Shown piece by piece: positions 508 to 55,043 of a DNA stretch of 64,000 bases (position 1 is its first letter; each line of letters starts with the position of its first letter). The DNA is from Gelidibacter mesophilus DSM 14095 (GTDB lineage Bacteria > Bacteroidota > Bacteroidia > Flavobacteriales > Flavobacteriaceae): positions 62,001 through 126,000 of the forward strand of contig NZ_AUHD01000005.1 in NCBI RefSeq assembly GCF_000423005.1, read 5' to 3'. Made by a program: the position numbers and the translations under genes. Under the pieces are notes generated by a model. It did not search any database, had not been told where the DNA came from, and saw nothing but the letters and a program-made list of their open reading frames with translations.

Positions 508-3500
508 ATGAGTAATAAAACAAGGCTTTTAGGTGTGATTTTTATGTGCTTAAGCACACTTTTGTATGCGCAAAATACAGTTACGGGTACCGTGGTTGAT
601 GATAATGGGATGACCCTGCCAGGCGTAAATGTTATAGTTAAAGGGACCTCAAATGGGACTTCTACGGACATTGATGGTAATTATTCTATTGATGCTGCAG
701 AAACCGATATTTTAGTGTTTAGCTATATCGGCTTTAAATCTCTAGAGGTCAAGATTGATCAGCGCTCAGTCATTAATATCACCTTATTGGAAGATTCACA
801 ATCTTTGGATGAAGTAGTGGTTACTGCCCAAGGTATCAAAAAATCCAAAAAAGCATTAGGATATGCCATTGCTAAATTGGATCCTGAAGATGTTGAAAAT
901 CGTCCTGAACCAAATTTAGCTAAAACATTACAAGGTAAAATTACCGGTGTTACGATTTCAGAATCAAATGGACAATCTGGGGCAACTACTAATATTAGAA
1001 TTAGAGGTTCAATATCGCTTACGCAGTCCAATTCTCCTTTAATAGTGGTCAATGACGTGCCGTTTGCTGGCGACATCAATGATATTGATGCTAACGATAT
1101 TTTAAGCATGAGCATATTAAAAGGTTTTAATGCGGCCGTTCTTTATGGTAGTGAAGGTAGGAATGGCGTCATATTAATTCAGACCAAAAGTGGAAATGCT
1201 GAATTAGGAATGTCTAAAACAACGGCTACGTTTTCCACCACCTCTTATATGAATATAGTTTCTCAATTGCCGGAATACCAGAATAAATACGGTCCTGGAC
1301 AAGAAGGTAGTTATATCCCGTCATTTTTATCCAATTATGGACCGGCTTACTCCTCTATTGACGAGGTAGCACATCCCTACGCAGATATGGGGGAAGTTTT
1401 TCCTCAATATAAAGATGTGATGGTGCCTTATGTTGCTAAAAAAGATCATGTTAAAAATATATTTAATAACGGTTACGGCAAAATATACGCCCTTGCCGTT
1501 TCAACAACAAAAGATAATTTAGGATTCAACATTTCGGCTGGGTATACTGATGAAGAGGGTATTATCGACAATAACAGTTTGAAGCGTTTCAATATTGGAC
1601 TTGGTGGTAATGCTAAATTAGGCGAAAAATTGCTTCTTTCGGCGACATTGAATTATTCTACAAGAAAAACCGACAGAGTTCAATCACAAGAAATTTTTAG
1701 ACGAATATTTTATCTTCCAACGAATATTGATTTAACAGAATTGCCCTACCAAAATCCTTTTACTGGGGAATCTGTTTATTATAGAAATGATACAAATCCG
1801 TTGTGGGTATTAAATAATTCCGGTATTACTGATGATGTGGTAAGAGTGTTTGGGACAGTCAACGCAAACTATCAACTTAATGATAATCTTAATGTCATCT
1901 ATAGGGTTGGATATGATAGTGAGCAGTTTGATACTTTCGATTATTCTAATAAGGGTGGGTATTTCAATGATGAATTCAGAACAGGTTATCTAAATATGGG
2001 TTATAATAAACAAGTTGTCGTGGATCAAACCATAATTGTTGGTTTCATCAAAGATTTGACTAATGAATTAGGTTTGGAAGCTCAGGTAGGCGGAAATTCT
2101 AAATTGTCAAAATCAAAGATTATGTCTTCTGATTCTCAGGGACAATTGACTTATGATTTTTTAAGGCCCTCTAACTACAGCACATCACAATCTTATTTTG
2201 AAACTGAAGATGAAAATTTGGCTGGTGTTTTCGGTCAGCTTCAATTCGACTATAAGAACTATTTATATGCCACCTTATCCGGTAGAAATGATTGGGGAAG
2301 TACGGTAGAATCCGGTAATCAGTCTTTATTTTATCCAGGTGCGTCCATTTCCTTCATCCCAACTTCAGCTTTCAATTTTGGCAGTGATGTCATAAATTAT
2401 TTAAAAATTAGAGGTGCATACGCTACGTCTTCGGGCTTTCCCGAAGCATATAGAACAAGAAATACATTGATCATTGATGCCAATAGGTTTGCCTCGGCTG
2501 ATGGTTCCCTGCCTGTAACCAATAGATTTAACAAAATATTTGCCAATCCCAATTTGCAACCTGAGTTGCATAAAGAGTTTGAAGTGGGTATTGAAACTAA
2601 ATTACTTAATAACCGTGTGACTTTGGAAACATCGCTATATAAGAGGGTGTCAGAAGATCAGATTGTTGCATCACCTTTGGCGCCTTCTTCAGGTTATGAT
2701 ATTCAGTTTATCAATTTGGGAAGGGTTGATAATAAGGGGATTGAAGTTGATTTAGGAATTGATATCATTAAAAATGAGAATTTTCAATGGAATATGAGAA
2801 ACCTATTTACTGCTGAAGAATCTTTAGTGGTTGAAACTACTGCTACTGGGGCTAATATTAATTTAATTGCTGATCGATGGGCAGTTGAAGGTCAACCTTT
2901 GAATGCTATTGTTGGAAGTTATGCACTAAGGGATAATAATGGTAATCTTTTAATAAGCGGGAATGGGGGCAGCACTAGAGTGGGTGAAGTTATTTCCAGT
3001 GATGATATTGGTTTGGATGATAGGGTTATTGGTGATCCCAACGCTGATTGGAGGTGGACAAATATCAATACATTTACTTATAAGAATTTTAGGTTGTCAG
3101 CACAAATAGAATATAGTCATGGTGGAGATATTTCTTCGCGTTCTGTAGAAGATATGCTTGAACGTGGTGTCACTAGAGATACAGAAAATCGAGAGGGATC
3201 TTTTGTGATACCTGGTATCTTAGCCGATGATGCAACCGGTGATGTTTTATTGGATCCCAATGGTAACTCTATTCCCAATACCGTTCAATTAAATGGATTA
3301 AGAACTGCTTTTTCAAATTATTATAATCCCAATGACTTGAGTATGTGGGATGCTTCTGTATTTCGTGTAAGAGAACTTTCTATTGGATATTCATTGATAA
3401 ATAAAAAAGGAAGTAATCTTCCATTCGATAAGTTAGACTTATCATTGGTAGGGAGAAACCTTTGGTTTAAGGCGCCAAATTTTCCCAAATATGTGAATTA

Positions 3501-3585
3501 TGATCCAGAAAATGACGGTGGCTTGGGAAGAAATAATTTGCCATCCACCAAAAGGATTGCACTAAGTTTATTATTGACATTTTAA
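508..3585 (+). CDS. SusC/RagA-family TonB-dependent outer membrane receptor
   Basis: A 1025-residue protein with a signal peptide ending near residue 22 (LLYAQ), a carboxypeptidase-D-like beta-sandwich at about 24-95, a DEVVVTAQG linker near 100-108 and a plug domain containing LQGKITGV and NIRIRG. It then has a long beta-barrel ending in an aromatic C-terminus (LLLTF). SusC proteins form the outer membrane channel that imports oligomers captured by a partner SusD. The SusD partner starts 20 bases downstream. The neighbours are peptidases and amidohydrolases rather than glycosidases, so the likely cargo is a peptide or amino-acid polymer; this is inference from context. There is no STN domain, so no direct FecR-type signalling is expected. 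Confidence 0.95.
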   Translation: MSNKTRLLGVIFMCLSTLLYAQNTVTGTVVDDNGMTLPGVNVIVKGTSNGTSTDIDGNYSIDAAETDILVFSYIGFKSLEVKIDQRSVINITLLEDSQSLDEVVVTAQGIKKSKKALGYAIAKLDPEDVENRPEPNLAKTLQGKITGVTISESNGQSGATTNIRIRGSISLTQSNSPLIVVNDVPFAGDINDIDANDILSMSILKGFNAAVLYGSEGRNGVILIQTKSGNAELGMSKTTATFSTTSYMNIVSQLPEYQNKYGPGQEGSYIPSFLSNYGPAYSSIDEVAHPYADMGEVFPQYKDVMVPYVAKKDHVKNIFNNGYGKIYALAVSTTKDNLGFNISAGYTDEEGIIDNNSLKRFNIGLGGNAKLGEKLLLSATLNYSTRKTDRVQSQEIFRRIFYLPTNIDLTELPYQNPFTGESVYYRNDTNPLWVLNNSGITDDVVRVFGTVNANYQLNDNLNVIYRVGYDSEQFDTFDYSNKGGYFNDEFRTGYLNMGYNKQVVVDQTIIVGFIKDLTNELGLEAQVGGNSKLSKSKIMSSDSQGQLTYDFLRPSNYSTSQSYFETEDENLAGVFGQLQFDYKNYLYATLSGRNDWGSTVESGNQSLFYPGASISFIPTSAFNFGSDVINYLKIRGAYATSSGFPEAYRTRNTLIIDANRFASADGSLPVTNRFNKIFANPNLQPELHKEFEVGIETKLLNNRVTLETSLYKRVSEDQIVASPLAPSSGYDIQFINLGRVDNKGIEVDLGIDIIKNENFQWNMRNLFTAEESLVVETTATGANINLIADRWAVEGQPLNAIVGSYALRDNNGNLLISGNGGSTRVGEVISSDDIGLDDRVIGDPNADWRWTNINTFTYKNFRLSAQIEYSHGGDISSRSVEDMLERGVTRDTENREGSFVIPGILADDATGDVLLDPNGNSIPNTVQLNGLRTAFSNYYNPNDLSMWDASVFRVRELSIGYSLINKKGSNLPFDKLDLSLVGRNLWFKAPNFPKYVNYDPENDGGLGRNNLPSTKRIALSLLLTF

Positions 3586-3605: not shown

Positions 3606-5207
3606 ATGAAAACAATATTTAGATACTTTGGCTTTACATTAGTTACATCACTTTGCCTATTGACTTGTGAAGTTAGTAATTTTGATCTTCAAGAAAATCC
3701 AAACCTACTAAACCCTAGTAGTGCCGATCCAGAATTTCTACTTAACGAGGTTCAGTATCTCTTTCAGGATATTATGGGTGATATGGTTATAAACACTGAT
3801 GATATTATGCGCTATGAGGCTATGACAGATGTATATTCAGATGTCGCAGGTGTAAATGTTTTAAATGGGGAGTGGAAAAGATATTATGAAGCTTTAACTA
3901 TTTCTAACACTTTGGAAGATTTAGCCGAGTCAGATTCAAATTTACTTTTCCACAACGCAATTAGTAAATTGCTGACTGGTTATCTTACCGTGACATTGGT
4001 TGATTATGTAGGGGATATCCCATATTCTGAAGGTGCGAATCCTACTGATTTTCCAAATCCTAATACAGATAATAGTGTTGAACTTTATAAAATGGTTCTT
4101 TCAGATATTGATGAGGCTATTGCAGATATAGAATTGGCCACTTTTAGTGTTTCTTCAGATTTGTTTTACAATAGCAATAAAGATAAATGGAAAGCATTTG
4201 CCAATTCTTTTAAGTTAAGATTGTTGATTCAAACAAGATTGGCTAGTAGCGATTTAGGAATTTCTGATTTACAAGGTCAAATAAATACATTATTGGCAAA
4301 AGACATTATTGATTCATCCTCCGACGATTTTGTATATTCTTATGCTTCTGTTCAAGAACCTGAAAGCAGGCATCCTTATTTTAGAAGAGGATATATCAAC
4401 GGTTTTGCTCAATATATGGGTAATTATTTTATGTATATGCTGAAGGATTCAAAAAGTATGAGAGATCCTAGGATACGTTATTATTTTTATCGTCAATCTG
4501 ATATTGACCCCTTTAGTGGTCCTCCATATTTAGCATGTCAAGGAGACCCTACAGTAGATTATTGTTATTTGGGCGATCAATATTGGGGATTAGATCATGG
4601 AGAGGCAAGGACGGGAAGAGGAGATAATTTATTAAGGACAGTATATGGGGTTTTTCCTGGAGGCGGCGCATTTGATCAAAACCAATTTGTTGGTTCTCCA
4701 CATACCAACAACTTAGGAGGGGCAGGCTTTTTACCAATTCTAACATCTTACAATGTAAAATTTTTAGCTGCCGAAGCTGCGCTGATGCTGGGTACCAATG
4801 GAGATCCAGAAACATTGCTCGAACAAGGTATTAGGGCATCGATGAGTAAAGTGATGAATTTTGGTAACATAACATCTACTTATGCTGCAACTGCGGCAGA
4901 CGTAGATGATTATGTGTTAGAAGTGTTAAATGATTACAGGGCTGCAAATACGGAAGAAGAAAGACTAGACGTTATTATTACTGAGTATTATTTAGCCACT
5001 TTTGGGAACTCGATTGAAGCTTATAATGCATACAGAAGAACAGGATATCCTTCAAATATTCAAACACCCATTGATAATGATAACCCTACTTTCCCTAGAA
5101 GTTTCCCTTATCCGAACGATGAGGTTTCGACAAATCTGTCAATAAGTCAAAAATCAATAACCGCAAAGATTTTTTGGGATAAAAATCCGGATGGTTTTAT
5201 AAAATAA
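3606..5207 (+). CDS. SusD/RagB-like outer membrane lipoprotein
   Basis: A 533-residue protein with a lipoprotein signal (Cys at about residue 21, context LLTC), then a helical SusD-like fold. Recognisable parts are the N-terminal segment with FLLNEVQ, the TPR-like helices around LTGYLTVTLVDYVGDIPYSEG, and the late segment KFLAAEAALMLG. It resembles the SusD-like group often annotated as nutrient-binding outer membrane lipoprotein. It should sit on the cell surface as the lid of the SusC channel encoded 20 bases upstream. The following lipoprotein gene starts 10 bases after its stop, so the three genes probably form one transcript. Confidence 0.93.
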   Translation: MKTIFRYFGFTLVTSLCLLTCEVSNFDLQENPNLLNPSSADPEFLLNEVQYLFQDIMGDMVINTDDIMRYEAMTDVYSDVAGVNVLNGEWKRYYEALTISNTLEDLAESDSNLLFHNAISKLLTGYLTVTLVDYVGDIPYSEGANPTDFPNPNTDNSVELYKMVLSDIDEAIADIELATFSVSSDLFYNSNKDKWKAFANSFKLRLLIQTRLASSDLGISDLQGQINTLLAKDIIDSSSDDFVYSYASVQEPESRHPYFRRGYINGFAQYMGNYFMYMLKDSKSMRDPRIRYYFYRQSDIDPFSGPPYLACQGDPTVDYCYLGDQYWGLDHGEARTGRGDNLLRTVYGVFPGGGAFDQNQFVGSPHTNNLGGAGFLPILTSYNVKFLAAEAALMLGTNGDPETLLEQGIRASMSKVMNFGNITSTYAATAADVDDYVLEVLNDYRAANTEEERLDVIITEYYLATFGNSIEAYNAYRRTGYPSNIQTPIDNDNPTFPRSFPYPNDEVSTNLSISQKSITAKIFWDKNPDGFIK

Positions 5208-5217
5208 ACGAAAAGTT

Positions 5218-5721
5218 ATGAAAAAATTATTAAAAATTTCAGTTTGTTTTCTGGTTCTTTTTGGTTGTTCTGATGACGCCAACTTGTTAGAAGATATTGC
5301 AATGAGAGGCGGTTATATTCAATTTGAAGAAACACCAACTTTAAAAGTAAATATAGCAAATGTTGATAACGCTGTTATATCTGAGAGATTAATTGATCCA
5401 AATAAAAATGCAACAAACTATTCTCTCAATTTATTTTATAAAGATAAAGTGGTCATAGATTTTTTGGTCATAAATTCTTTTCCAGCAACTATGAACATTC
5501 CAATTAGTGACATTACAAGTGCTTTAGGGATGACAAATGCCGATATAAAGTTGAATACAAAATTTAAGTTTGTCGCTCTTGTGACCACGCCGACAGGAAC
5601 ATTTTCCGGTGAAACTCCAAAGTTTAATGATGAAAATATCAACTTAGGAGGGGATACAACTGTGCGTTTAAAAGCAACTGCATTGAACGATGCCATAGAG
5701 TTTGATATCACCTTTTTCTAA
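5218..5721 (+). CDS. small companion lipoprotein of the SusC/SusD pair
   Basis: A 167-residue protein with a short lipoprotein signal (LFGC, Cys at about residue 17). Beyond that it is predicted mostly beta-strand and contains the segment VVIDFLVINSFPATMNIPISDI. Small beta-rich lipoproteins of this kind often follow SusC/SusD in flavobacterial loci and are thought to be surface binding proteins; I do not know a proven function. It begins 10 bases after the SusD stop and is probably co-transcribed. The assignment as a lipoprotein is firm. The role in ligand capture is inference from position. Confidence 0.85.
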   Translation: MKKLLKISVCFLVLFGCSDDANLLEDIAMRGGYIQFEETPTLKVNIANVDNAVISERLIDPNKNATNYSLNLFYKDKVVIDFLVINSFPATMNIPISDITSALGMTNADIKLNTKFKFVALVTTPTGTFSGETPKFNDENINLGGDTTVRLKATALNDAIEFDITFF

Positions 5722-5763
5722 CCTGCCAAACTAGAGCAATAAATTCTTTTTAAAAAAGGCCTT

Positions 5764-6045
5764 TTGTTTAGAGGACGGAGCTTAATTTATAACGGAAGCA
5801 AGAATAAATGTGGAGCTTTCATCAATGTTGCAAATTCAGGAGTTGTCAATTTCATTTCTTTTGGTGTTTGTATTGATGAAGAAATTGGTCTTAATAATAA
5901 ATTTATTACTATGGATGACAGGAGGGGTAGCCGGTTAGGGGTTTCTGACGAACATATTGATGGGTTATCTGCTTTAGAAGATCTTTTGTGCTATCCTGAC
6001 GGTTCACAAGATTTCCATATAGAAATGATAGTGATGAATTATTAA
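5764..6045 (+). CDS. unrecognised 93-codon reading frame, possible gene remnant
   Basis: The frame opens at a TTG and has no convincing start or ribosome binding site. Its composition is protein-like, with the segments GAFINVANSGVVNF, IDEEIGLNNKFITMDD and SDEHIDGLSALEDLLC. I do not recognise the family. It may be the surviving piece of a larger degraded gene, because the flanking sequence up to 6459 has no continuing frame. It could also be chance. Confidence 0.25.
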   Translation: MFRGRSLIYNGSKNKCGAFINVANSGVVNFISFGVCIDEEIGLNNKFITMDDRRGSRLGVSDEHIDGLSALEDLLCYPDGSQDFHIEMIVMNY

Positions 6046-6459: not shown

Positions 6460-7629
6460 ATGCTAAAACTAAAAAACATTGTTTCTATTGCTATTTTAAT
6501 ACTCGTAATATCTTCTTGTAATCAATCAAAATCTAAAAAAGATGTTGTTTTTGATGCATTATTTGAAGGGGCGAGATTAGATAGTGTTATTCCATTGGAT
6601 AATAATAGCTTTCTGCTTAAAATAAACCCGGCTTTTGAGCCTGTTAATGATAGTCCTTACTATGCTTTTTCTTTGACCTCAGAGACAGCTCAAACAATTG
6701 AAGTTTTGCTAGATTATGGAGCTTATAAACATCGCTATATACCGAAGTTGAGCTACGATAAACATGTATGGAAAAAGATCAGTAAAAATAATATACGTTT
6801 TGACACAGTGAACAATAAGACGGTTCTCAAGTTAGATGTCTCTTCTAAAAAATTATATGTTTCTGCTCAAGAAATTGAAACATCGCAAGATACTTATAGA
6901 TGGGTTGATAGTATTATAAATGATAAGCCAGAAATTAAAAAATCAATAGCTGGGACAACGGTTTTAAAACATAGCAATTATGTTATGCAATATGAAACTC
7001 CTGAGGTGAAAAAAGCGATTGTTCTAATTGCAAGACAGCATCCACCAGAAATTCCTGGAGGGTCTATAGGTTTTAAAGCATTTTATGAAGAACTAGTAGC
7101 TTCCAACGAGATTGCGCATCGATTTAGACAACACTATAATATTTATGCTTTTCCTTTATTAAATCCTGATGGTGCTGATTTAGGAAACTGGCGCCATAAC
7201 GCTAATGGTGTGGACCTTAATCGAGATTGGGTTGAGTTTGAACAGCCGGAGACGCAGATGGTGAAAACTTTTTTAGTGAACAAATATAATAATGGAAACT
7301 CCATTGAATTCGCTATCGATTTTCATACATCTTACTCTGGACCTTATCTGTTGGTTCTTGATTCAATTAATAATGTTAAAAGCAAAGGAATCATTGATAA
7401 ATGGATTGAGAACATTGAGACGAATTCCTCTTTTAAAGTAGAGGCAAGACCTAGAAGTCAAGAATTGCCTTACTGTTATAATTATTTTTATAACACTTAT
7501 GGCTGTGAAGCTGTAACCTATGAAGAGGGAGATGAAATTGATAGAGATATTATTAAACAGCGTGCAAGGTTATATGCGCAACAATTTATGGAAACAATGA
7601 TTTTAAAAATTAAAATCAATGAAATATAA
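6460..7629 (+). CDS. M14-family zinc carboxypeptidase, lipoprotein
   Basis: A 389-residue protein with a lipoprotein signal (ISSC, Cys at about 20). The M14 catalytic set is complete: HPPE supplies the first zinc His and Glu, NPDG and GVDLNRDW supply substrate-binding Asn/Arg, DFHTS gives the third zinc ligand, and TYEEGDE carries the catalytic Glu. The family cleaves C-terminal residues, and some members cut gamma-D-glutamyl bonds in peptidoglycan peptides. The N-terminal 130 residues form an extra beta domain before the peptidase. The stop overlaps the start of the deacylase gene by 11 bases, so the two are translationally coupled. It is anchored outside the cytoplasm. The exact substrate is unknown. 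Confidence 0.92.
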   Translation: MLKLKNIVSIAILILVISSCNQSKSKKDVVFDALFEGARLDSVIPLDNNSFLLKINPAFEPVNDSPYYAFSLTSETAQTIEVLLDYGAYKHRYIPKLSYDKHVWKKISKNNIRFDTVNNKTVLKLDVSSKKLYVSAQEIETSQDTYRWVDSIINDKPEIKKSIAGTTVLKHSNYVMQYETPEVKKAIVLIARQHPPEIPGGSIGFKAFYEELVASNEIAHRFRQHYNIYAFPLLNPDGADLGNWRHNANGVDLNRDWVEFEQPETQMVKTFLVNKYNNGNSIEFAIDFHTSYSGPYLLVLDSINNVKSKGIIDKWIENIETNSSFKVEARPRSQELPYCYNYFYNTYGCEAVTYEEGDEIDRDIIKQRARLYAQQFMETMILKIKINEI

Positions 7630-9172
7630 TTTGTTTCTTCTTTTGGCTATTATATCGTGCATCAGTTTGTCTTGTTTAGAGCCAGAAATTGAAGCTGATA
7701 TTTTAATTATAAATGGCACCGTTTATAATGGAGTTGATCAAAAGCCTACAACTGAATGTGTTGCCATCAAAGATGATCTTATCATCTATATTGGTGATGC
7801 TAATGCTATTTCGATAAACGCAAAAATGACGATTGATGCTGATGGTTTAATTGTGTCACCCGGTTTTATAGACCCTCATACCCATGCTGATCGAGATTTA
7901 ATCAATGAGGAAACCTCCCACAATCAACCCTTTTTGTTCCAAGGGATTACTACTGTTGTCGTAGGTAATGATGGAGATAGTTTTTATCCTACCTCCAAAT
8001 ACAGAGATTTATACGATAAGCAAGGTCTAGGCACCAATGCAGTATTGTTGTTTGGGCATGGGACAATAAGAGAGCAAGTCATGGGTAGAAGTGATAGAAA
8101 AGCTACCGATAATGAGATGTTTCAGATGCGGGAATTGGCCCATCAGGAAATGAATGCTGGAGCTTTTGGAATTTCTACAGGTTTATTTTACGCTCCAGGG
8201 AGTTATTCAAACAGCCAAGAAGTTATTGAGATTGCAAAAACAGTTTCAGAGCACAATGGCATCTATGATACGCATCTTAGAGATGAAAGCTCATATACAG
8301 TTGGTTTAATTCCAGCAATTGAGGAGGCAATAGAGATAGGCAGACAAGCTAAATTGCCTATACACATTTCGCATATCAAATGTTTGGGCGTAGATGTTTG
8401 GCACCAAAGTGCTGAGATAATAAATCGGATTGAAAGTGCACAACTTGAGGGGATAGAGGTTACGGCAAATCAATATCCTTATGATGCCTCTGCCACAGGT
8501 TTAAAATCTGCTGTGGTTCCGCGATGGGGTGAGAGTGGCGGTACAGACTCTCTCTTTATAAGATTTGAGAATAACAGATTAAGACCGAGAATATTACAGG
8601 AAACAAAAGTCAATATTGAGCGTAGAGGAGGTGCGGATAAATTGTTAATTGTAAAATGTGAAGACACTGCTTATGTTGGCAAAAATCTACTGGAAATTTC
8701 TGAGATTTTGAATATATCGCCAGAAGAAACTGTTTTCAATGTGTTGAAGACGGGATATGTGCGTGTGGCTTCTTTTAATATGAATTCAGATGATATCCAT
8801 GCATTTATGAAACGAGATTGGGTTTTTACAGGATCTGATGGAAATACTGGACATCCTCGAAAATATGGAACCTTCCCTCGAAAATATCATAAGTATGTGG
8901 TACAAGATGAGGTCATCGATATTGGTTTTTTTATTAATCAAAGTACATCAAAGACTGCGGATGCTATCAGGATAAAAAAACGAGGCAGGTTGGTTGAAGG
9001 GTATTATGCAGATATCATAATATTTAACCCGAAAACATTTAAGGATAAAGCTGATTATAAAAATGCATTTCAGTTAGCAGAAGGGTTGGAATATAGCATT
9101 ATCAACGGGAAACTGACAATTGATAAAAGAGAATACAATGGCAAATTAAACGGGAAAGTGCTAACGAAATAA
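7619..9172 (+). CDS. N-acyl-D-amino-acid deacylase family amidohydrolase, lipoprotein
   Basis: A 517-residue protein with a lipoprotein-type signal (Cys at 14 or 19) and the D-aminoacylase layout. It has an N-terminal beta sandwich, the metal motif HTHAD (His87, His89), THLRDES, ISHIKCLG, then GSDG followed by HPRKYGTFPR, and a C-terminal part of the sandwich. This family removes the acyl group from N-acyl-D-amino acids, including N-acyl-D-glutamate. One oddity is that the usual GNCG segment, whose Cys is a zinc ligand in characterised enzymes, reads GNDG here (Asp118). The gene overlaps the upstream M14 gene by 11 bases and precedes the racemase-like gene by 17 bases. A D-amino-acid role fits the neighbourhood. 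Confidence 0.88.
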   Translation: MKYNLFLLLAIISCISLSCLEPEIEADILIINGTVYNGVDQKPTTECVAIKDDLIIYIGDANAISINAKMTIDADGLIVSPGFIDPHTHADRDLINEETSHNQPFLFQGITTVVVGNDGDSFYPTSKYRDLYDKQGLGTNAVLLFGHGTIREQVMGRSDRKATDNEMFQMRELAHQEMNAGAFGISTGLFYAPGSYSNSQEVIEIAKTVSEHNGIYDTHLRDESSYTVGLIPAIEEAIEIGRQAKLPIHISHIKCLGVDVWHQSAEIINRIESAQLEGIEVTANQYPYDASATGLKSAVVPRWGESGGTDSLFIRFENNRLRPRILQETKVNIERRGGADKLLIVKCEDTAYVGKNLLEISEILNISPEETVFNVLKTGYVRVASFNMNSDDIHAFMKRDWVFTGSDGNTGHPRKYGTFPRKYHKYVVQDEVIDIGFFINQSTSKTADAIRIKKRGRLVEGYYADIIIFNPKTFKDKADYKNAFQLAEGLEYSIINGKLTIDKREYNGKLNGKVLTK

Positions 9173-9189: not shown

Positions 9190-10725
9190 ATGAATAAACT
9201 AAATCTGTATATTGGAATCTTTGTGTTACTTATTTTAGCAAGTTGCAAAACTAGTTCTGAAAAAGAGCATTCATCTGAAGTTGAAAAATCAAATATTGTT
9301 AGTACTATTATCGCAGATAGAGATAATTTTTATCACATAGACTTCAAAAACTATCCTGTCAAAGAAAAGAGACTTCCAATTGGTGTGTTTGATTCAGGAA
9401 TTGGAGGATTGACGGTTTTAAATGCTATTGTCAATTACGATGAAAACCAAAATGCAACCCTTTTAAAAGGCAGTGATGGGATAGTCGATTTTGACAAGGA
9501 ATCTTTTATTTATTTAGCAGATCAAGCTAATATGCCATATGGCAATTACTCAAAGGAAAACAAAGGGGAGCTTTTAAAGGAGCATATCATTAAAGATGCT
9601 CAATTTTTACTGAGTAATAAGTATTATGTCAATGCTACCGATAAAAATTATACTGATGATAAAGAGCCTGTAAAGGTATTAGTTATTGCGTGTAATACTG
9701 CCACAGCTTATGGCAAAGAATATATAGAGGAGTTTATTAGAAAGTCAAATACCTATATAAAAGTCATTGGGGTTATTGACGCCGGTGTTAGAGGTGCTTT
9801 AGAAAGGATTGAAAAAGACGAGGATGCGATAATCGGGGTTTTGGCTACTGCTGGAACTGTGGCGTCAAAAGGCTACAGTAATAGTATCATAAATTTAAAA
9901 GATAAGTTAAATTACAAAGGCAATATTGAGGTGTTTTCTCAAGGAGGAATAGGTATAGCAGAAGCAGTAGATGAAGATACTGACTATTATAATAAAAATT
10001 TAAAGCGGCCTCAAGATAATTATAAAGGACCGAGTCTAAATGGTGATGTTAAAATTGATAAAACACTATTTGATATTTACAACTTTGATTTTGATGATAA
10101 TAAAATGTTATGTGATTCAGAGAGAGCTGATGATTGCTCTATACTTCAAATTAATGATGCCGAGAATTATGTACGTTATCACTTAGTTACGTTGATGGAA
10201 AATATACGTAAGTCAAAAACCAATAATAAATTGAAATCTATTATTTTGGGATGTACCCATTATCCATATTTGAAGGATGAGATTTCAGGTGTCTTAAAAG
10301 AATTATATAATTATAAAGGGGTAGATGGTGTCTACTTTTATAGAGCTTTGATGGCAGCGAATGTTGAATTGATTGATCCAGCAGTTAACACGGCAAAAGA
10401 GCTTTATGACTACTTAAAGCAAGAGCAACTATTCAATCCTGATGGAGATATTAAAAGTAGTGAATTTTATATTAGTGTTGCCAATGCCGATAATGACAAT
10501 ATAGTAATAGATGCTGAAGGCAACTTTCCGTATGATTACAAATACGGTAGGAAGGAAGGGGAAATTCAAGAGTATGTCAAGATGGTTCCATTTAGCAGGA
10601 CTAATATTTCTGATGATAAATTAGCCAGAGTTCAGGAGCAGATTCCTTATGTCTATCAGTTGATACAGACTTTTAATAAGAGCAATAGTAAAGTTAAAAA
10701 AATGACTGAAGATGAAAAAATATAG
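9190..10725 (+). CDS. lipoprotein form of glutamate (Asp/Glu) racemase
   Basis: A 511-residue protein with an evident lipoprotein signal (LASC, Cys19). The rest carries the full MurI signature: FDSGIGG (Asp68, Ser69), ACNTATA (catalytic Cys168), GVLATAGTV and GCTHYP (second catalytic Cys355, then His), plus ELIDPA. Ordinary glutamate racemase is a cytoplasmic enzyme of about 260-280 residues supplying D-Glu for peptidoglycan. This one is nearly twice as long, with an insertion before the ADQANMPYG segment, a long insertion between about residues 255 and 320, and a C-terminal extension. The signal implies it acts outside the cytoplasm. With a D-aminoacylase just upstream it may convert released D-Glu to L-Glu for uptake. 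Racemase family is near certain; direction and substrate are inference. Confidence 0.9.
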   Translation: MNKLNLYIGIFVLLILASCKTSSEKEHSSEVEKSNIVSTIIADRDNFYHIDFKNYPVKEKRLPIGVFDSGIGGLTVLNAIVNYDENQNATLLKGSDGIVDFDKESFIYLADQANMPYGNYSKENKGELLKEHIIKDAQFLLSNKYYVNATDKNYTDDKEPVKVLVIACNTATAYGKEYIEEFIRKSNTYIKVIGVIDAGVRGALERIEKDEDAIIGVLATAGTVASKGYSNSIINLKDKLNYKGNIEVFSQGGIGIAEAVDEDTDYYNKNLKRPQDNYKGPSLNGDVKIDKTLFDIYNFDFDDNKMLCDSERADDCSILQINDAENYVRYHLVTLMENIRKSKTNNKLKSIILGCTHYPYLKDEISGVLKELYNYKGVDGVYFYRALMAANVELIDPAVNTAKELYDYLKQEQLFNPDGDIKSSEFYISVANADNDNIVIDAEGNFPYDYKYGRKEGEIQEYVKMVPFSRTNISDDKLARVQEQIPYVYQLIQTFNKSNSKVKKMTEDEKI

Positions 10726-10882: not shown

Positions 10883-12577
10883 ATGATTAGTAAGAAAATC
10901 CTTGTTATTTTATTCATTATAGTTTTATTCAGCTGTGGGCCGAATAGAACTACAACCTTACAATCTCCTCTACCTCCAGATATCGGTCAGGATTTACAGG
11001 CAAAAAACGGAATGGTTACTTCCGCTAATAAATTAGCAAGTCAAATAGGAGTCGATATTCTTAAAATTGGGGGAAATGCGGTTGATGCTGCGGTTGCCAC
11101 AGCATTTGCGGTAAGTGTAACAGAACCTGAAATGTCTGGTTTAGGTGGTGGTGGAGCCATGATAATATGGTTAGAGAAAGAGAAAAAAACGATTTATCTG
11201 GACTTCTATTCCGCTAAACGTATGGTAACCTATACCAATTTACCGAATAAAGGTGACGATCAACCTCTTTGGGAAATAGCGATTCCAGGTGAAGTTGCGG
11301 GACTGCTTTATGCTTTGGAAAATCATGGTAACCTTTCAAGGAAACAGGTTATGCAACCAGCAATCGATCTCGCTGAAGATGGTTTTCCCATGTACCGAAC
11401 ATTGGCTGAATTTATAGATTCCAGTGCTGAGAGACTAAAAAAATATGAAGGATCAAAACTTTTCCTTCCAGATGATAACCCATTCCCAGTGGGAAAAATA
11501 TTTAAGCAACCAGAACTTGCAGAAACTTTACGAGAAATTGCCGAAAAAGGCGCCGATGCTTTTTATAATGGTCCGATAACACAGGACATTATAGACGTCA
11601 TGAATGAAGGAGGAAATCCAGTTACCTTACAGGATTTTAGAGATTATAAGGTAAGCACAAATAGAGGATTTTTAAAGACGTCATATAAGAATTGGACCAT
11701 CTTGACGGCACCATCACCACAAGGAGGTTTAGAAATTATTTCAGATTTAAATCTATTAGAACCATTTAATTTGAAAGAAATGGGACTCCCCACACAATCC
11801 GACACAACTTTTCATGTATTAGCTGCCGCTATGCGCGCAGGCATTGCAGATCGACAATTTATTGCGGACCCTAATTGGGTGGATGCTCCCATCTCAGTAT
11901 TAAGTTCTAAAGAGTTTGCCTTTAGACGAGCTAAAGAAGTTTTTAAAACACCTATTCCGGATACTATTTCTATTCAGACATTGAAAGACCTTAGCAAGAC
12001 GCCTAAATTGGAAAACGTAAATGATGGAGAAACTACATCTTTATCGGTTATTGACAAGGACGGGAATGCTGTTAATTTAACACATACACTTAGTTCTGTT
12101 TTTGGCAAAAATGCCGTATGGGTTCGAGGTTTTTTCCTTAATAATTCAGGTATGAAATTCTCAAGTGTCGAAAATGTAGATGTATTAGATAAACCTAAAT
12201 CCGATTATTGGACTAGATATTCTACTATTGCTCCAACAATTATTTTAAATCCTAACAATACAGTTAAAATGGTTTTAGGAGCCCCTGGAGGAGGACGAAT
12301 TGACCCAGCAATAGTTCAAAGCATTATTTACATTCTCGACTATGGGATGGATCCTGCCACAGCAGCTAGAATGCCTCGAATCTACCCGAATTATGACACT
12401 TCAATTAATATTGGAAAAGGTTTTAAGGGAGAAGTTATAAGTAAAGCATATAATAGAGGTTATAGATTTCATGTGGGTTTAGGCGGATATGCGCGAATCT
12501 ATGTGATTGAAAATGATAATGGAATATTAAAAGGTGCTGCCGATCCAAACCATGAAGGAGGGGTATCTGGTTATTAA
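10883..12577 (+). CDS. gamma-glutamyltransferase-like Ntn hydrolase, lipoprotein
   Basis: A 564-residue protein with a lipoprotein signal (LFSC, Cys at about 18). It has the gamma-glutamyltranspeptidase fold order: GGNAVDAAVA, SGLGGGGAMI, then the autocleavage and catalytic Thr384 in GETTSLSVID, and the late APGGGRI loop. It should mature into a large and a small subunit, with Thr384 as the new N-terminus. By eye, the Arg and Asp that hold the free gamma-glutamyl end in E. coli GGT are not conserved: DFRE becomes DFYS, and the MDDF segment becomes GMKF. The PLSSMSPT loop is also changed to RYSTIAPT. It may therefore cut a different acyl or internal gamma-glutamyl bond. The lipid anchor places it outside the cytoplasm. 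Confidence 0.9.
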   Translation: MISKKILVILFIIVLFSCGPNRTTTLQSPLPPDIGQDLQAKNGMVTSANKLASQIGVDILKIGGNAVDAAVATAFAVSVTEPEMSGLGGGGAMIIWLEKEKKTIYLDFYSAKRMVTYTNLPNKGDDQPLWEIAIPGEVAGLLYALENHGNLSRKQVMQPAIDLAEDGFPMYRTLAEFIDSSAERLKKYEGSKLFLPDDNPFPVGKIFKQPELAETLREIAEKGADAFYNGPITQDIIDVMNEGGNPVTLQDFRDYKVSTNRGFLKTSYKNWTILTAPSPQGGLEIISDLNLLEPFNLKEMGLPTQSDTTFHVLAAAMRAGIADRQFIADPNWVDAPISVLSSKEFAFRRAKEVFKTPIPDTISIQTLKDLSKTPKLENVNDGETTSLSVIDKDGNAVNLTHTLSSVFGKNAVWVRGFFLNNSGMKFSSVENVDVLDKPKSDYWTRYSTIAPTIILNPNNTVKMVLGAPGGGRIDPAIVQSIIYILDYGMDPATAARMPRIYPNYDTSINIGKGFKGEVISKAYNRGYRFHVGLGGYARIYVIENDNGILKGAADPNHEGGVSGY

Positions 12578-12754: not shown

Positions 12755-14107
12755 ATGAAAAACAATTTATATTTCATCTTCTTCCTTATAACATTTAGTG
12801 TTATCACTCAAAAAAAAGATTCACAAATCATCTTAATAAAAAATGTAGAAATATTCGATGGTATTAACCAACAAACTATTATTGGAAATATTCTTATTGA
12901 AGGAAATAAGATTTCTAAAATTTCCAAGAGTAATATCTCTTCCACCTCTAAAGATGTTTTGGTTATCGATGGAGAGGGAAAGTTTGTAATGCCAGGAATG
13001 ATTGATGCTCACACTCATATTGGTATGGAAGGGATCCCAATGGGTTCCGCGACGGTAGATTGGGGAACGGCCAATATTATTTCTACTCAAGCTGCAAAGC
13101 ATCGTCTATTACATGGATTTACCACTTTAAGAAATATGGGCGGAAATGCTATACCTTTAGCCAAACAGATTGATAAAGGAACAGTACCTGGTCCGAGAAT
13201 TTATCCAAGTGGAGCTTTTATATCTCAATCTGGTGGTCATGGCGATTTTGATAATATAACGGCGGTACCTCGAACTTCAGATAATTTGTCCTATTCAGAA
13301 AGACAGGGGATCGCAGCAATAGCCGATGGAACTGATCAAGTATTAAAACGTACACGCGAACAATTAAGGCAAGGTGCAACTCAAATAAAACTTATGGCGG
13401 GTGGTGGAATTGGCTCTTCTTATGATCCTATTGATGTTACCCAATATTCTTTGGAAGAATTCAAAGCCGCAGTTTTAGCAACTGATAATTTTGGAACTTA
13501 CGTAGCCGTTCATGCCTACACACCACGAGCTATACAAATAGCAATTGAAGCTGGTGTCAAAACAATTGAACATGGACATTTAATGGATGAAGAGACTGCT
13601 AAAATTATGGCTGAAAAAGGAGTTTGGTTGAGTATTCAGCCATTTATGATTGAAGAGCAGAATGATTATCTTATAGGCTCACCAAGCAGAGAAAAACGAG
13701 ATTATGTTTATGGGCATACGGATGAAGTTTATAAAATAGCGAAAACATATAAAGTAAAAACAGCATGGGGTACCGATCTTACCGGAAAACAGAAAATTGA
13801 TAGACGTAATGATCTATCTCGATTAATTGGATTAAAAAAATGGTTTTCTCCATATGAAGCACTTAAAATGGTGACTTCTACAAATGCTGAAATGTTGCGT
13901 TTGAGTGGGCCACGTAATCCATATCAAGAAGGTAATTTAGGAGAGTTAACAGAAGGATCTTATGCTGATTTAATTATAATTAACGGCAATCCTATGAAAG
14001 AATTTGATTTACTAAATAATCCAGAAGAGAATTTTCTACTGATTATGAAAGATGGCAAAGTATATAAAAACTCACTAAATGATATGAAGTTCGATACCAC
14101 GCTATAG
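12755..14107 (+). CDS. secreted metal-dependent amidohydrolase (imidazolonepropionase / Xaa-Pro dipeptidase-like)
   Basis: A 450-residue protein of the amidohydrolase superfamily. It shows DAHTHIG near residue 88, the Lys that is usually carbamylated (QIKLMAGGG), VAVHAYT, EHGHL and WGTDL, which together supply the binuclear metal site. A hydrophobic N-terminus (residues 4-18) suggests export. Relatives hydrolyse dipeptides or cyclic amides, including Xaa-Pro and Xaa-Arg/Lys dipeptides. It closes the run of peptide-processing genes and is separated from the GGT-like gene by 177 bases. No terminator was recognised after it. The specific substrate cannot be told from sequence. Confidence 0.85.
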   Translation: MKNNLYFIFFLITFSVITQKKDSQIILIKNVEIFDGINQQTIIGNILIEGNKISKISKSNISSTSKDVLVIDGEGKFVMPGMIDAHTHIGMEGIPMGSATVDWGTANIISTQAAKHRLLHGFTTLRNMGGNAIPLAKQIDKGTVPGPRIYPSGAFISQSGGHGDFDNITAVPRTSDNLSYSERQGIAAIADGTDQVLKRTREQLRQGATQIKLMAGGGIGSSYDPIDVTQYSLEEFKAAVLATDNFGTYVAVHAYTPRAIQIAIEAGVKTIEHGHLMDEETAKIMAEKGVWLSIQPFMIEEQNDYLIGSPSREKRDYVYGHTDEVYKIAKTYKVKTAWGTDLTGKQKIDRRNDLSRLIGLKKWFSPYEALKMVTSTNAEMLRLSGPRNPYQEGNLGELTEGSYADLIIINGNPMKEFDLLNNPEENFLLIMKDGKVYKNSLNDMKFDTTL

Positions 14108-14495: not shown

Positions 14496-14884
14496 ATATA
14501 TGAGAAAGCCAACCTCTATCTGAAAGCGATAACCAAGGACGTTGAAATTGAAAAAAACTCAACTTTCACATGGCAAGACATACGTTTGCTACAACAGTGG
14601 CATTGAGCAACGGAATGCCAATCGAAACCGTTTCTAAAATATTGGGACATTCAAAAATCACGACTACTCAAATTTATGCTCGTGTCATGGATCACAAGAT
14701 AAAATCAAATATGGACGCTGTGCAAAGAAGGCTCGACAAAAAAGCGAGGCAACTTGAAAAAGAACACGAGCTGAAACTGCTAAGAAAAAAAAATGCAGAT
14801 GCTGAAAAGGACAAATATGCTGAGATGTCAAAGGATCAACTCCTTAAGAAGCTGAACAAAATAATGAACGAAAAATCAGATTAG
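14496..14884 (+). pseudogene. tyrosine recombinase/integrase remnant, C-terminal part, frameshifted
   Basis: The 3' part reads HMARHTFATTV, ILGHSKITTTQIYARV, which is the His-x-x-Arg / Tyr end of the phage-integrase catalytic domain in Bacteroidota transposon integrases. Immediately upstream, another frame reads LYLKAITKDVEIEKNSTF, which matches the segment that normally precedes it. The two frames meet in an A-rich run at about 14550-14566, so a frameshift splits the gene. Everything further N-terminal (DNA-binding domain and first catalytic Arg) is missing. It marks an old mobile element insertion now decayed. Confidence 0.85.
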
Positions 14885-33188: not shown

Positions 33189-34325
33189 ATGAAAAAACTA
33201 TGTGTATTAGTGATGATTTTTTTTAATGTGTATGCTTGCCAAACTGATGATCCCGTAGCGGATGACATCATCCAAAACCCTGGAGACGGTGGCATTGAAC
33301 AACCCGGCGGTATTGTTGAAGGCTTCTTTTTATTGAACGAAGGCAATATGTCCATGAACAAAGCGTCCCTTGATTATATGGATTATGAGACTGGAACTTA
33401 CAGGAGAAATGTATTCAGTCAGGCCAATCCTAACTTAGTTGGAGGGCTAGGAGATGTAGGAAATACCATAGGTATCTATGGCTCAAAATTGTATGTTGTC
33501 GTGAATGCTTCCAATAAAATTGAAGTGCTCAATGCTGATACTGGCATACGCATCAAACAAATAGACCTTGCGAATGGTCGCTACGTCACGTTTTACAAAG
33601 GAAAAGTTTATGTGAGCAGTTATTTGGGCAGCATTGGAGACCCTAACGCTCCTAAAGGCATCGTGGCGGAGATTGACACCACGAGCTTGAATATTACTCG
33701 CCGAGTAGAGGTAGGGAGGCAGCCTGAAGAACTGGTGGCTTACAATGATAAAATTTATGTAGCCAACTCGGGTGGCTATAGTCCGCCAGATTATGAATCT
33801 ACCATTTCTGTGATTGACATTCCTAGCTTTACAGAAAACAAACGTATTGAGGTGGCGGTCAACCTTCACCGTTTAAAAATTGATAGGGAAGGCGACCTAT
33901 ACGTGACCTCAAGAGGTGATTATTACGAGATTCCGTCAAAGTTGTTCGTAATCGACACCAAAACCGAAACGATTAAAAAGAGTTTTGATATCGGGGTGAC
34001 TGATTTTACCATACATAATGATGTGGCTTATATGTACAGCACAGAGTTCAGTTATATTTCTGGCGATTATGATATTTCTTACCGAATGCTGGACACGCAA
34101 ACAGAAATATTTCTGGAAACTACATTTATTTCTGACACCCACAAGGCGCTTATCGAAATGCCTTATGGCATCGCCGTTCATCCTGAATCAGGTGATGTCT
34201 TGATTACGGATGCCAAAGATTACGTAACGCCGGGTACGCTCTATTGCTTTACTCCGGAAGGCGCATTGAAATGGTCCGTTGAAACGGGTGATATTCCCGC
34301 ACATATAGCTTTTAAATACAAATAA
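33189..34325 (+). CDS. BtuG-like surface lipoprotein, YncE-type beta-propeller
   Basis: A 378-residue protein with a lipoprotein signal (VYAC, Cys at about 17) and repeated blades of the YncE type (GSKLYVVVNASNKIEVLNADTG, NDKIYVANSGGY, ISVIDIPSF, GIAVHPESGDVLITDA). Bacteroides BtuG proteins are surface beta-propellers that capture B12 very tightly and pass it to BtuB. The same gene order under a B12 riboswitch suggests this protein does the same. It starts 12 bases after the receptor stop. Fold is certain; B12 binding is inference. Confidence 0.85.
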   Translation: MKKLCVLVMIFFNVYACQTDDPVADDIIQNPGDGGIEQPGGIVEGFFLLNEGNMSMNKASLDYMDYETGTYRRNVFSQANPNLVGGLGDVGNTIGIYGSKLYVVVNASNKIEVLNADTGIRIKQIDLANGRYVTFYKGKVYVSSYLGSIGDPNAPKGIVAEIDTTSLNITRRVEVGRQPEELVAYNDKIYVANSGGYSPPDYESTISVIDIPSFTENKRIEVAVNLHRLKIDREGDLYVTSRGDYYEIPSKLFVIDTKTETIKKSFDIGVTDFTIHNDVAYMYSTEFSYISGDYDISYRMLDTQTEIFLETTFISDTHKALIEMPYGIAVHPESGDVLITDAKDYVTPGTLYCFTPEGALKWSVETGDIPAHIAFKYK

Positions 34326-34348
34326 TCTAAATCTTAAATAACAAAAAA

Positions 34349-35467
34349 ATGAAAACAAATTACAACAAACTACTCGTGGCTATTTTTAGTATTGCCCTTT
34401 TTCTGACCGCGTGTTCTAACGATGATGATCATGGAATTTTAGCGCCAGAAGTGACAATGGACATCCAAGATCAAGCACTTCAACTGAGCGTTGGAGACAA
34501 TTCTACCTTCTCGGCTAGTAATCAAAATAATTCAGTATATACGGAGACCTGGTCTTTGGGAGATAGCATTGTGTCTAATGCTGATACCTATATTTTTGAA
34601 CCGAAAAACTCGGGGACTTATAATCTTTCTTATGCTGCTGTTAATGAAGCAGGGACGTTTGCCTATGAATACACCATAACGGTACTTCCTAAGTTAAGAC
34701 CAATAACCGACGACAGCAAAGCGTTCGTAACGGCTCTTTTAGACTTTTGGCCAGCTCCGGGTCAGTTTATCAATAAAAAGCCTGGAAACCTAGAAAGTGC
34801 AGAAGGTATTATTGGAGGCCGTGGCTTAGTAAGTTTAGGAGGCTGGGGAGGTTCAGTAACCTATACTTTTGATCATACGGTACTTAATCATGCTGATAAA
34901 AACGACTTAATTATATATGGCAACGCCATGCCAACATTCTCTGAGCCGGGTGTTATTTATGTGATGCAAGATGATAATGCTAACGGATTGCCAGATGATA
35001 AATGGTACGAAATCAAAGGAAGTGGTCACGATTTAGAAGGTACTGACCGCGCTTATAAGGTTACTTATTACAGGCCTGCAACTGCTGATGGCGATGTGCC
35101 GTGGGAAGATAACAACGGCAATACTGGTGTTATCGCCAAAAACGCATTTCATAAACAAGCCTACTATCCAGAATGGATTACTGAAGATTCCTATACCATT
35201 TCTGGCACCTTGTTATCCGATAGTAATATTGATATGAGCAATCCTTCCTACATCACCAGTAAACCTTTTGAATACGGTTATGCTGACAACACGAGTGGTG
35301 GAGATCAAATTGATTTAGCTGATGCCATTGATGCAGACGGCAATCCCGTTAATTTAAGTGGGATTGACTTTATCAAGATTCAAACCGGAGTACAAGCCAA
35401 TATGGGGTGGCTGGGTGAATTATCGACTGAAGTCACTGGTATTGCTGATTTAAATCTGATTGACTAA
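34349..35467 (+). CDS. PKD-like surface lipoprotein of the B12 operon
   Basis: A 372-residue protein with a lipoprotein signal (FLTAC, Cys at about 22). A PKD/Ig-like domain at roughly 35-115 (WSLGDSIVSNADTYIFEP, YNLSYAAVNEAGTFAY) is followed by a larger domain with GGWGGSVTYTFDHTV, DLIIYGNAM and DDNANGLPDDKWYEIKGSG. Proteins of this type accompany BtuB/BtuG in Bacteroidota and are commonly annotated only as cell surface protein. Being in the riboswitch operon it probably helps corrinoid capture or handling. I see no enzyme motif. Confidence 0.8.
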   Translation: MKTNYNKLLVAIFSIALFLTACSNDDDHGILAPEVTMDIQDQALQLSVGDNSTFSASNQNNSVYTETWSLGDSIVSNADTYIFEPKNSGTYNLSYAAVNEAGTFAYEYTITVLPKLRPITDDSKAFVTALLDFWPAPGQFINKKPGNLESAEGIIGGRGLVSLGGWGGSVTYTFDHTVLNHADKNDLIIYGNAMPTFSEPGVIYVMQDDNANGLPDDKWYEIKGSGHDLEGTDRAYKVTYYRPATADGDVPWEDNNGNTGVIAKNAFHKQAYYPEWITEDSYTISGTLLSDSNIDMSNPSYITSKPFEYGYADNTSGGDQIDLADAIDADGNPVNLSGIDFIKIQTGVQANMGWLGELSTEVTGIADLNLID

Positions 35468-35488
35468 TCATTATATAACTAAAACAAC

Positions 35489-36811
35489 ATGAAACTTAAA
35501 TTCTCTTTTTTTAAAAAATTATGCATTCTCGCTTTTGCAGTGAGCATCGTAGGTTGTAGTAGTGATGACGATGTTTTTGTCAATCCACCATCCGTAGAGG
35601 GCGCCCAACAATTGCAAGATACCATCACCATGGGACAATCTCTTTTGCTGCGTCCGAAATTCAGCAATACCAAAAATTCAATTTATGAATGGAAGGTTGA
35701 TGGCGAGTTGGTAGGCAATGATTCAACCTTCGTATTCATCCCGCAAGTCCGCGGAACGCATCAAGTAAGCGTCTTGGCGAAAAATGAAGGAGGAGAAGCG
35801 TCTCTGACTTACGACATCCACACATGGGGCGCTTTTGAAAATGGTTTTTACTTGATCAACGAAGGTTGGTTTGGACGAGGTACCGGAACGGTGGGGTTCT
35901 ACCGCTATGATAGCCAAACTCTGGAAGATAGTGTGTTTGTGAAGACCAACCCAACTAAGGACCTCTTCCCTTTAAATTCTACTTTAGGATTTGGAACCAT
36001 TCATAATGAAAAATTATATTTAGTGAGCAAGGTAGGAGGGCCAGTTGTGGTTTCTGATGCTTATTCGTTGGTAGAAGAACAACGGATTCCATCCAATTCT
36101 GGCAACGATTGGCGCGCATTTGTTGGGGTTTCAGATACGCAAGGTTTGTTGAGTTCCAGCAATGGTATTCATAAGGTGAATCTTGAAACGCTCCAAGTTG
36201 AAGATGCTCTAACTGGAATTTCAGGACAGATTGGAGACATGCTAAAGGTAGGAGAATATATCTTTATATTATCTCAACGCGAAGGTGTTCTTATATTAAA
36301 TGCTGCCACTTATGAAGTTGAGAAACGTATCCCGGATATGGCTTTAGGTTTTGTAAAAACTGAAGACAATAGGGTTTGGGCAGCAGGTGGCACCACCTTG
36401 GTCAAAATTAATTCGAGTACTTTAGAAACTGAAGACATAGAGCTCGGCTTTAAAGCAAATAGTAGTTGGGGAGCTTGGCATCCTAGTTCAATAACTGCCC
36501 ATGAGAATACGGTATTTATTGCTAAAAACGGATCTTTCGGAGGTGGAAATGAAATTTATCGCTATACAAATGACAGCGCTTCATTGCAAAATCCATTTAT
36601 CAAACTTCCGGAAACAGAGGTGCTTTATGGTGCTGGATTGGCATTTAATCCAGATTCAGGTCAATTGGTTGTGCGTACCGTTCGTGATGGCTGGGGCGAA
36701 AACTTCAGTTATAATAAACTTCATTTTTATAATTCCGATTCCGGTAATTTAGAAAAAACCATAGCCTATGATGGTTATTATTTCCCAAGTACTATGGTGT
36801 TTCATGAATAG
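35489..36811 (+). CDS. DUF5074-type BtuG-like surface lipoprotein with N-terminal PKD-like domain
   Basis: A 440-residue protein with a lipoprotein signal (SIVGC, Cys at about 23). A PKD-like domain at 40-110 (YEWKVDGELVGNDSTFVFIP) is followed by a beta-propeller (NGFYLINEGWFGRG, TIHNEKLYLVSKVGG, YIFILSQREGVLIL, GAGLAFNPDSGQLVVRT). It is the second propeller lipoprotein of this operon and a domain-fused relative of the one at 33189. It may bind a different corrinoid or act at another step. A strong terminator follows at 36857. Confidence 0.83.
   Translation: MKLKFSFFKKLCILAFAVSIVGCSSDDDVFVNPPSVEGAQQLQDTITMGQSLLLRPKFSNTKNSIYEWKVDGELVGNDSTFVFIPQVRGTHQVSVLAKNEGGEASLTYDIHTWGAFENGFYLINEGWFGRGTGTVGFYRYDSQTLEDSVFVKTNPTKDLFPLNSTLGFGTIHNEKLYLVSKVGGPVVVSDAYSLVEEQRIPSNSGNDWRAFVGVSDTQGLLSSSNGIHKVNLETLQVEDALTGISGQIGDMLKVGEYIFILSQREGVLILNAATYEVEKRIPDMALGFVKTEDNRVWAAGGTTLVKINSSTLETEDIELGFKANSSWGAWHPSSITAHENTVFIAKNGSFGGGNEIYRYTNDSASLQNPFIKLPETEVLYGAGLAFNPDSGQLVVRTVRDGWGENFSYNKLHFYNSDSGNLEKTIAYDGYYFPSTMVFHE

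Positions 36812-48871: not shown

Positions 48872-55043
<6,172 letters not shown>

Follow-up and report, generated by a model that had tools for sequence, protein, structure and literature searches.

Glutamate racemase (MurI or RacE; TIGR00067) is treated as a cytoplasmic enzyme of cell-wall building and as a drug target, and its chains in the PDB are 254–291 amino acids long. The periplasmic broad-spectrum racemases, BsrV and BsrF and the Alr of Pseudomonas putida, are of the pyridoxal phosphate (PLP)-dependent alanine-racemase type. Here we describe a stretch of 64,000 nucleotides from Gelidibacter mesophilus DSM 14095 (contig NZ_AUHD01000005.1, positions 62,001 to 126,000 of the forward strand; hereafter the window), which encodes a 511-residue homologue of glutamate racemase with an export signal. 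Judged from their sequences, some Bacteroidota encode an additional glutamate racemase that is exported, in most cases with a lipoprotein anchor. We consider it rather probable that the protein of the window is a glutamate racemase attached by a lipid to the outer membrane and facing the periplasm, where it would invert D-glutamate in a peptide-scavenging route.

Like BsrV, BsrF and P. putida Alr the protein is an exported amino-acid racemase homologue, but it appears to be of the cofactor-independent two-cysteine type. It differs from MurI/RacE in its length, its export signal, some six inserts of at least 13 residues, an extra pair of cysteines, its position in a separate clade and its location in an operon of hydrolases. 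The recycling of murein peptides in Escherichia coli employs MpaA and L-Ala-D/L-Glu epimerase, so that inversion occurs on a dipeptide in the cytoplasm, and by an unrelated enzyme. Both systems would bring the D-glutamate of stem peptides into L-glutamate metabolism, but here the inversion apparently acts on free glutamate and outside the cytoplasm. Scavenging of murein fragments is found in Bacteroidota in Tannerella forsythia, which takes up muropeptides via AmpG; the word racemase is absent from the accessible text of that paper (PMC5388701). A strain of Flavobacteriales has RacX, a broad-specificity racemase that belongs to the EcL-DER type of aspartate/glutamate racemases, and the accessible part of its description is without the term 'signal peptide' (PMC12838360). 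A search of the open-licence literature, which leaves out most subscription papers, found no description of a MurI-type racemase that is exported. The features of the racemase gene are as follows.

9190..10725, + strand: exported glutamate-racemase homologue, a lipoprotein of 511 amino acids, ATG to stop
9190..9243, + strand: lipoprotein-type signal peptide, residues 1–18, read from the sequence, with a helix at 4–17 in the model
9244..9246, + strand: lipobox Cys19 (L16-A17-S18-C19), invariant in 14 of 14 rows of alignment A1
9391..9393, + strand: Asp68 in DSGIGG, in 67 of 67 rows of alignment A2
9691..9693, + strand: Cys168 in ACNTAT, first catalytic cysteine, in 67 of 67 rows of A2
9979..10146, + strand: largest insert relative to 18 ordinary MurI rows, residues 264–319, with the conserved pair Cys308/Cys316
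10252..10254, + strand: Cys355 in GCTHYP, second catalytic cysteine, in 67 of 67 rows of A2

The catalytic motifs of MurI are intact at Asp68, Cys168 and Cys355, just as an earlier reading of this DNA (the sequence-only reading) had stated. The DSG, PYG (residues 116–118), CNT and CTH motifs and both catalytic cysteines are identical across all 67 exported rows of A2. In structural comparison the protein has the MurI fold, with an alignment to MurI that extends up to residue 493. The list of structural matches is filled by this fold, the PLP-dependent alanine-racemase fold not being on it, and the glutamate racemases rank approximately 10 Z units above the aspartate racemases. Nor did searches with Pfam and NCBIfam profiles give any match of the PLP alanine-racemase type at their thresholds.

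The MurI domain is interrupted by six inserts of at least 13 residues (84–100, 142–157, 264–319, 369–387, 442–454 and 470–489), whose positions rest upon the placement by MAFFT relative to the 18 ordinary MurI sequences. There is in addition a long N-terminus, and a 17-residue tail comprising residues 495–511. Extra segments are thus present as the sequence-only reading proposed, though there are more than the two insertions it counted. The C-terminal extension that it described is in part made up of inserts placed ahead of the last segment of MurI itself, the structural alignment reaching residue 493. Within the largest insert Cys308 and Cys316 are each kept in 66 of the 67 exported rows, L108 having neither. 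They probably form a disulfide, to judge from the sequences, and the pair is a further hint of export.

A MurI of the cell-wall pathway is cytoplasmic and without an export signal, whereas this protein has a lipobox at residues 16–19 (LASC), so the lipoprotein signal noted earlier is borne out. Relatives were found by a scan of GTDB contigs that gave 513 related stretches, and all counts over 80 loci refer to the best 80 of these 513. A rule-based reading of the 80 N-termini gave a lipobox only in 41, both patterns in 15, only a cleavable-type signal before Gln in 19, neither in 2, and 3 were unreadable. A Gln following the cleavage site is a rule reported for Bacteroidetes (PMC5837995). After reading by eye, which moved L038 and L099 to lipobox and L093, L095 and L102 to cleavable and placed the other 13 double cases with lipobox, there were 56 with a lipobox, 21 with a cleavable signal and 3 unreadable. 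An export signal is therefore present on about 77 of 80 relatives, and at the level of sequence a cytoplasmic location, which would have told against the earlier reading, does not apply. The cleavable signal replaces the lipobox in about 21, among the more distant relatives, and the two types require at least six changes on the racemase tree. Such repeated swaps, with the signal never lost in readable relatives, are as predicted by selection for export.

The lipidated cysteine is followed in the window protein by K-T-S-S-E, and this section is lysine-rich across the family. Acidic residues immediately after the lipid-bearing cysteine are reported as a surface-export signal (PMC5080379). At least two acidic residues at positions +2 to +6 are found in 3 of 55 lipobox relatives, compared with 18 of 25 linked SusD proteins, and the window racemase lacks this surface lipoprotein signal. 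Because the residues after the cysteine are basic, unlike the acidic signal of the neighbouring SusD, an anchor facing the periplasm is more likely than one facing the cell surface. Of the membrane-anchored, periplasmic or surface protein envisaged by the sequence-only reading, the lipid anchor and the periplasmic orientation are thus favoured, and exposure at the surface is the less likely.

The genome also encodes an ordinary MurI of 259 residues on another contig (208 bits with TIGR00067, over the cut-off). The exported racemase is thus not the sole murI, and the absence of another copy, which would have told against the earlier reading, does not apply. An ordinary murI over the cut-off was present in 21 of the 22 genomes examined. 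The window's own genome encodes in addition an aspartate-racemase-type protein. At two loci (L071, and L001 of the same genome as the window, at the other end of C4) an aspartate/cysteate-racemase-type gene adjoins a peptidase that we take to resemble DmpA; in L071 this pair is located beside an exported MurI and a GGT (gamma-glutamyltransferase).

A tree was built by a quick method without bootstrap and comprises 67 exported rows, 18 of ordinary MurI and 3 of a paralogue; the ordinary loci numbered 20, but L162 and L170 gave no open reading frame under the motif filter and were excluded. The exported rows lie on one side of a branch with SH-aLRT (Shimodaira–Hasegawa-like approximate likelihood ratio test) support of 97, as expected for the separate secreted clade that had been suggested, and the ordinary MurI rows are grouped with support of only 78. 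The ratio of non-synonymous to synonymous substitution rates (dN/dS) is 0.048–0.094 in six of eight close pairs of exported racemases. Of the remaining two pairs one is saturated in dS, and the other (0.30) comprises two exported copies within one Salegentibacter genome (L063 and L064), where the constraint is relaxed.

The exported gene is widespread but patchy in Bacteroidota. In a same-family draw of 397 genomes 15 match, including that of the window, with 14 full-length and one remnant; the gene is absent from all three other genomes of the genus in this draw. A draw over the phylum found it in 8 of 395 genomes, the window's own included, and one over the order in 1 of 296, the own genome alone. 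The best 80 of the 513 stretches come from Flavobacteriaceae, Saprospiraceae, Sphingobacterium and other lineages, all Bacteroidota; several belong to genomes of the 397-genome draw, and the two sets are not independent. Full-length relatives at 50–73% identity, taken with the low dN/dS, indicate that the open reading frame is more than chance, and full-length copies in 14 of the 397 same-family genomes and in other families of the phylum rule out chance or mis-assembly. The remnant (G006, locus L031) has two in-frame stops and is located beside a shortened deacylase, the symporter being retained. A MurI-like paralogue of about 305–310 residues, present in three other genomes (L143, L144 and L145), falls outside the exported and ordinary groups on long branches, with the motifs DSGLGG and CCTH.

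In the window the racemase is the sixth gene of a cluster, of which the other members are listed below.

508..3585, + strand: SusC-type outer-membrane importer, TIGR04056 559 bits, over cut-off
3606..5207, + strand: SusD-like lipoprotein, PF12771 E 1.1e-46
5218..5721, + strand: small Sus-cluster lipoprotein of 167 amino acids, from the list of open reading frames and comparison with relatives
6460..7629, + strand: M14 zinc-carboxypeptidase-type lipoprotein, PF00246 E 1.7e-15
7619..9172, + strand: D-aminoacylase or N-acyl-D-amino-acid deacylase-type lipoprotein, PDB D-aminoacylase E 3.5e-60
10883..12577, + strand: GGT-type lipoprotein, PF01019 E 5.4e-110
12755..14107, + strand: amidohydrolase, probably a member of the cluster, PF01979 E 1.2e-36

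The deacylase-type protein also matches the N-acyl-D-glutamate deacylase 3gip (E 4.8e-41). For the amidohydrolase the nearest NCBIfam model is an Xaa-Pro dipeptidase, whose cut-off is not reached. There is an overlap of 11 bases between the M14 and deacylase genes, and the deacylase stop lies 17 bases ahead of the racemase gene, so that M14, deacylase and racemase are likely on one transcript. Scans of the racemase region for promoters, terminators and repeats gave nothing usable. The small lipoprotein is short here (167 amino acids compared with 383–386 in L021, L023 and L028) and is followed by a second short open reading frame at 5764–6045; the gene (5218–6045) may be broken.

Neighbours were counted within four same-strand genes of the racemase. 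A D-aminoacylase type is near in 47 of 80 loci, directly adjoining in 43, and at least one amide or peptide hydrolase is near in 58. Sus genes are found in 36, M14 in 22, PF00144 in 19, GGT in 16, an SDF symporter in 14, a diaminopentanoate-dehydrogenase type in 8, a penicillin-amidase type in 6, a NagB type in 5 and M20 in 3, with an N-formylglutamate-amidohydrolase-like gene (a weak Pfam match) in 6. A fusion joins the racemase to a PF00144 domain in L085 (E 5.1e-61) and in L091 (E 5.4e-65). By comparison, in 20 ordinary murI loci (7.8–18 kb, all open reading frames on both strands) the sole match was one to PF00144, and the same control with the first reference set gave none. The linked SDF protein is nearest to bacterial and archaeal aspartate/glutamate transporters (best E 1.2e-95), the GltP model being below cut-off. 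The genes upstream of the racemase in L057 encode MurQ (over the cut-off), an oxidase, a GH18 protein and a member of GH3 whose nearest match, though below the cut-off for it, is beta-N-acetylhexosaminidase. A NagX-type gene occurs in L055 together with a MurQ gene that is truncated by the edge of the locus.

This gene company suggests that the role of the exported racemase is the catabolism of peptides containing D-glutamate. In the order of steps that we propose, the SusC/SusD pair would import such peptides (murein-type or gamma-glutamyl, with murein stem peptides the most likely), and the M14, PF00144 and GGT-type enzymes would trim them outside the cytoplasm. The D-aminoacylase-type lipoprotein would then remove the N-acyl or N-peptidyl group and so release D-glutamate. 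This would be converted into L-glutamate by the two-cysteine racemase, linked by its lipid to the periplasmic face of the outer membrane, and an SDF-type symporter would take up the product. Since the linked symporters belong to a class that transports acidic amino acids, inversion before uptake would have a purpose. More tentatively, though as a serious possibility, we suggest that this constitutes a complete extracytoplasmic salvage of D-glutamate in Bacteroidota. It would be based upon a two-thiol racemase with repeatedly reinvented export signals working in an oxidising periplasm; only L-glutamate would cross the inner membrane, and D-glutamate would be kept from the wall-building pool of the ordinary MurI.

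A number of observations weigh against catabolic inversion by an exported glutamate racemase. The TIGR00067 score (108.9 bits) falls below the curated cut-off of 146.65, so that within the MurI fold family the protein counts as a divergent branch and not as a member of the equivalog. The PF01177 (Asp_Glu_race) score is 30.5, with a gathering cut-off of 31 (a relative, P0003, scores 36.6); the profiles cover the protein piecewise, each below cut-off, because the inserts interrupt the MurI domain. It is chemically awkward for an enzyme with two catalytic thiols to work in an oxidising compartment, and racemases are reversible, whereas we predict the D-to-L direction. The M14-type lipoprotein matches the MpaA model weakly (E 1.5e-4, far under cut-off), the D-aminoacylase family is broad and PF00144 very broad. 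In 22 of the 80 loci, including most of those of Sphingobacterium, no sought hydrolase lies within four genes, and the 80 are biased toward close relatives. Linkage of the symporter is limited to the 14 loci, and in the window it is not linked, the two of this genome being on other contigs. Finally, G655, the exception among the 22 genomes, has the exported gene only. Among 60 genomes of its family 43 have a murI over the cut-off and 17 have none over it, of which 11 have no glutamate-racemase match, so another source of D-glutamate must exist in that family. Replacement of murI by the exported copy in G655 was considered, but with these counts the lack of murI in the family has no link to the exported gene.

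The main rival concerns the substrate. The same exported racemase could serve gamma-polyglutamate or other gamma-glutamyl polymers, from which GGT and M14 enzymes would free D- and L-glutamate for the racemase to even out. The GGT-type gene adjoining in the window and the frequency of GGT and M14 genes among the loci would fit this, but the MurQ and NagB-type genes of some loci point to amino sugars, MurQ specifically to N-acetylmuramic acid, and the PF00144 and D-aminoacylase types fit D-peptides generally. We regard it as unlikely, though the cluster in the window, which contains GGT but neither MurQ nor any other amino-sugar gene, does not separate murein from gamma-polyglutamate. It is less probable still that the enzyme makes periplasmic D-glutamate from L-glutamate for release, cell-wall editing or signalling, in the manner of the Vibrio periplasmic broad-spectrum racemases. 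Reversibility would permit this, and the periplasmic BsrF is discussed for Vibrio fischeri (PMC12502697), but the neighbours are hydrolases and importers. Moreover the periplasmic racemase of P. putida, another enzyme type, has a catabolic role and is reported to leave peptidoglycan unchanged (PMC6034422).

An equally improbable alternative is that the enzyme retains the MurI fold but acts on a different substrate, D-aspartate or a wider range of substrates. The large inserts could reshape the mouth of the pocket, and the profile score is under the glutamate racemase cut-off, but every tested motif of the substrate pocket is identical in the 67 rows and the structural ranking favours glutamate. 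Least probable of all is an inactive or moonlighting relative. The activity is predicted from sequence, but the catalytic residues are retained and dN/dS lies at 0.05–0.09 in six of the eight pairs. Surveys class glutamate racemase genes with D-amino-acid synthesis (PMC12363236). If D-glutamate catabolism by an exported racemase is the correct reading, part of those genes would serve the opposite end, consuming the D-glutamate of dead walls, which are a large pool of D-amino acids in sea and soil. The exported branch would also allow one to examine directly how a racemase with two catalytic thiols keeps its activity once it has left the cytoplasm.

Some further features of the loci and the window were observed. 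In 14 of 80 loci (L018, L032 and others) the racemase is followed, immediately or at a short distance, by a fn3-domain lipoprotein of about 436 amino acids. The two catalytic thiols would have to be kept reduced, and a DsbD-type gene is found three genes downstream in L035 and L042, which may be chance. A phage-integrase-type fragment of 104 amino acids (window 14570–14884) lies just downstream of the racemase cluster; together with the patchy distribution it gives a hint of mobile origin. Elsewhere in the window, three genes with DUF5074 and PKD_3 domains follow a TonB-dependent receptor (33189–36811), and a single open reading frame (48872–51898) joins APH kinase, M23 peptidase and class III aminotransferase domains.
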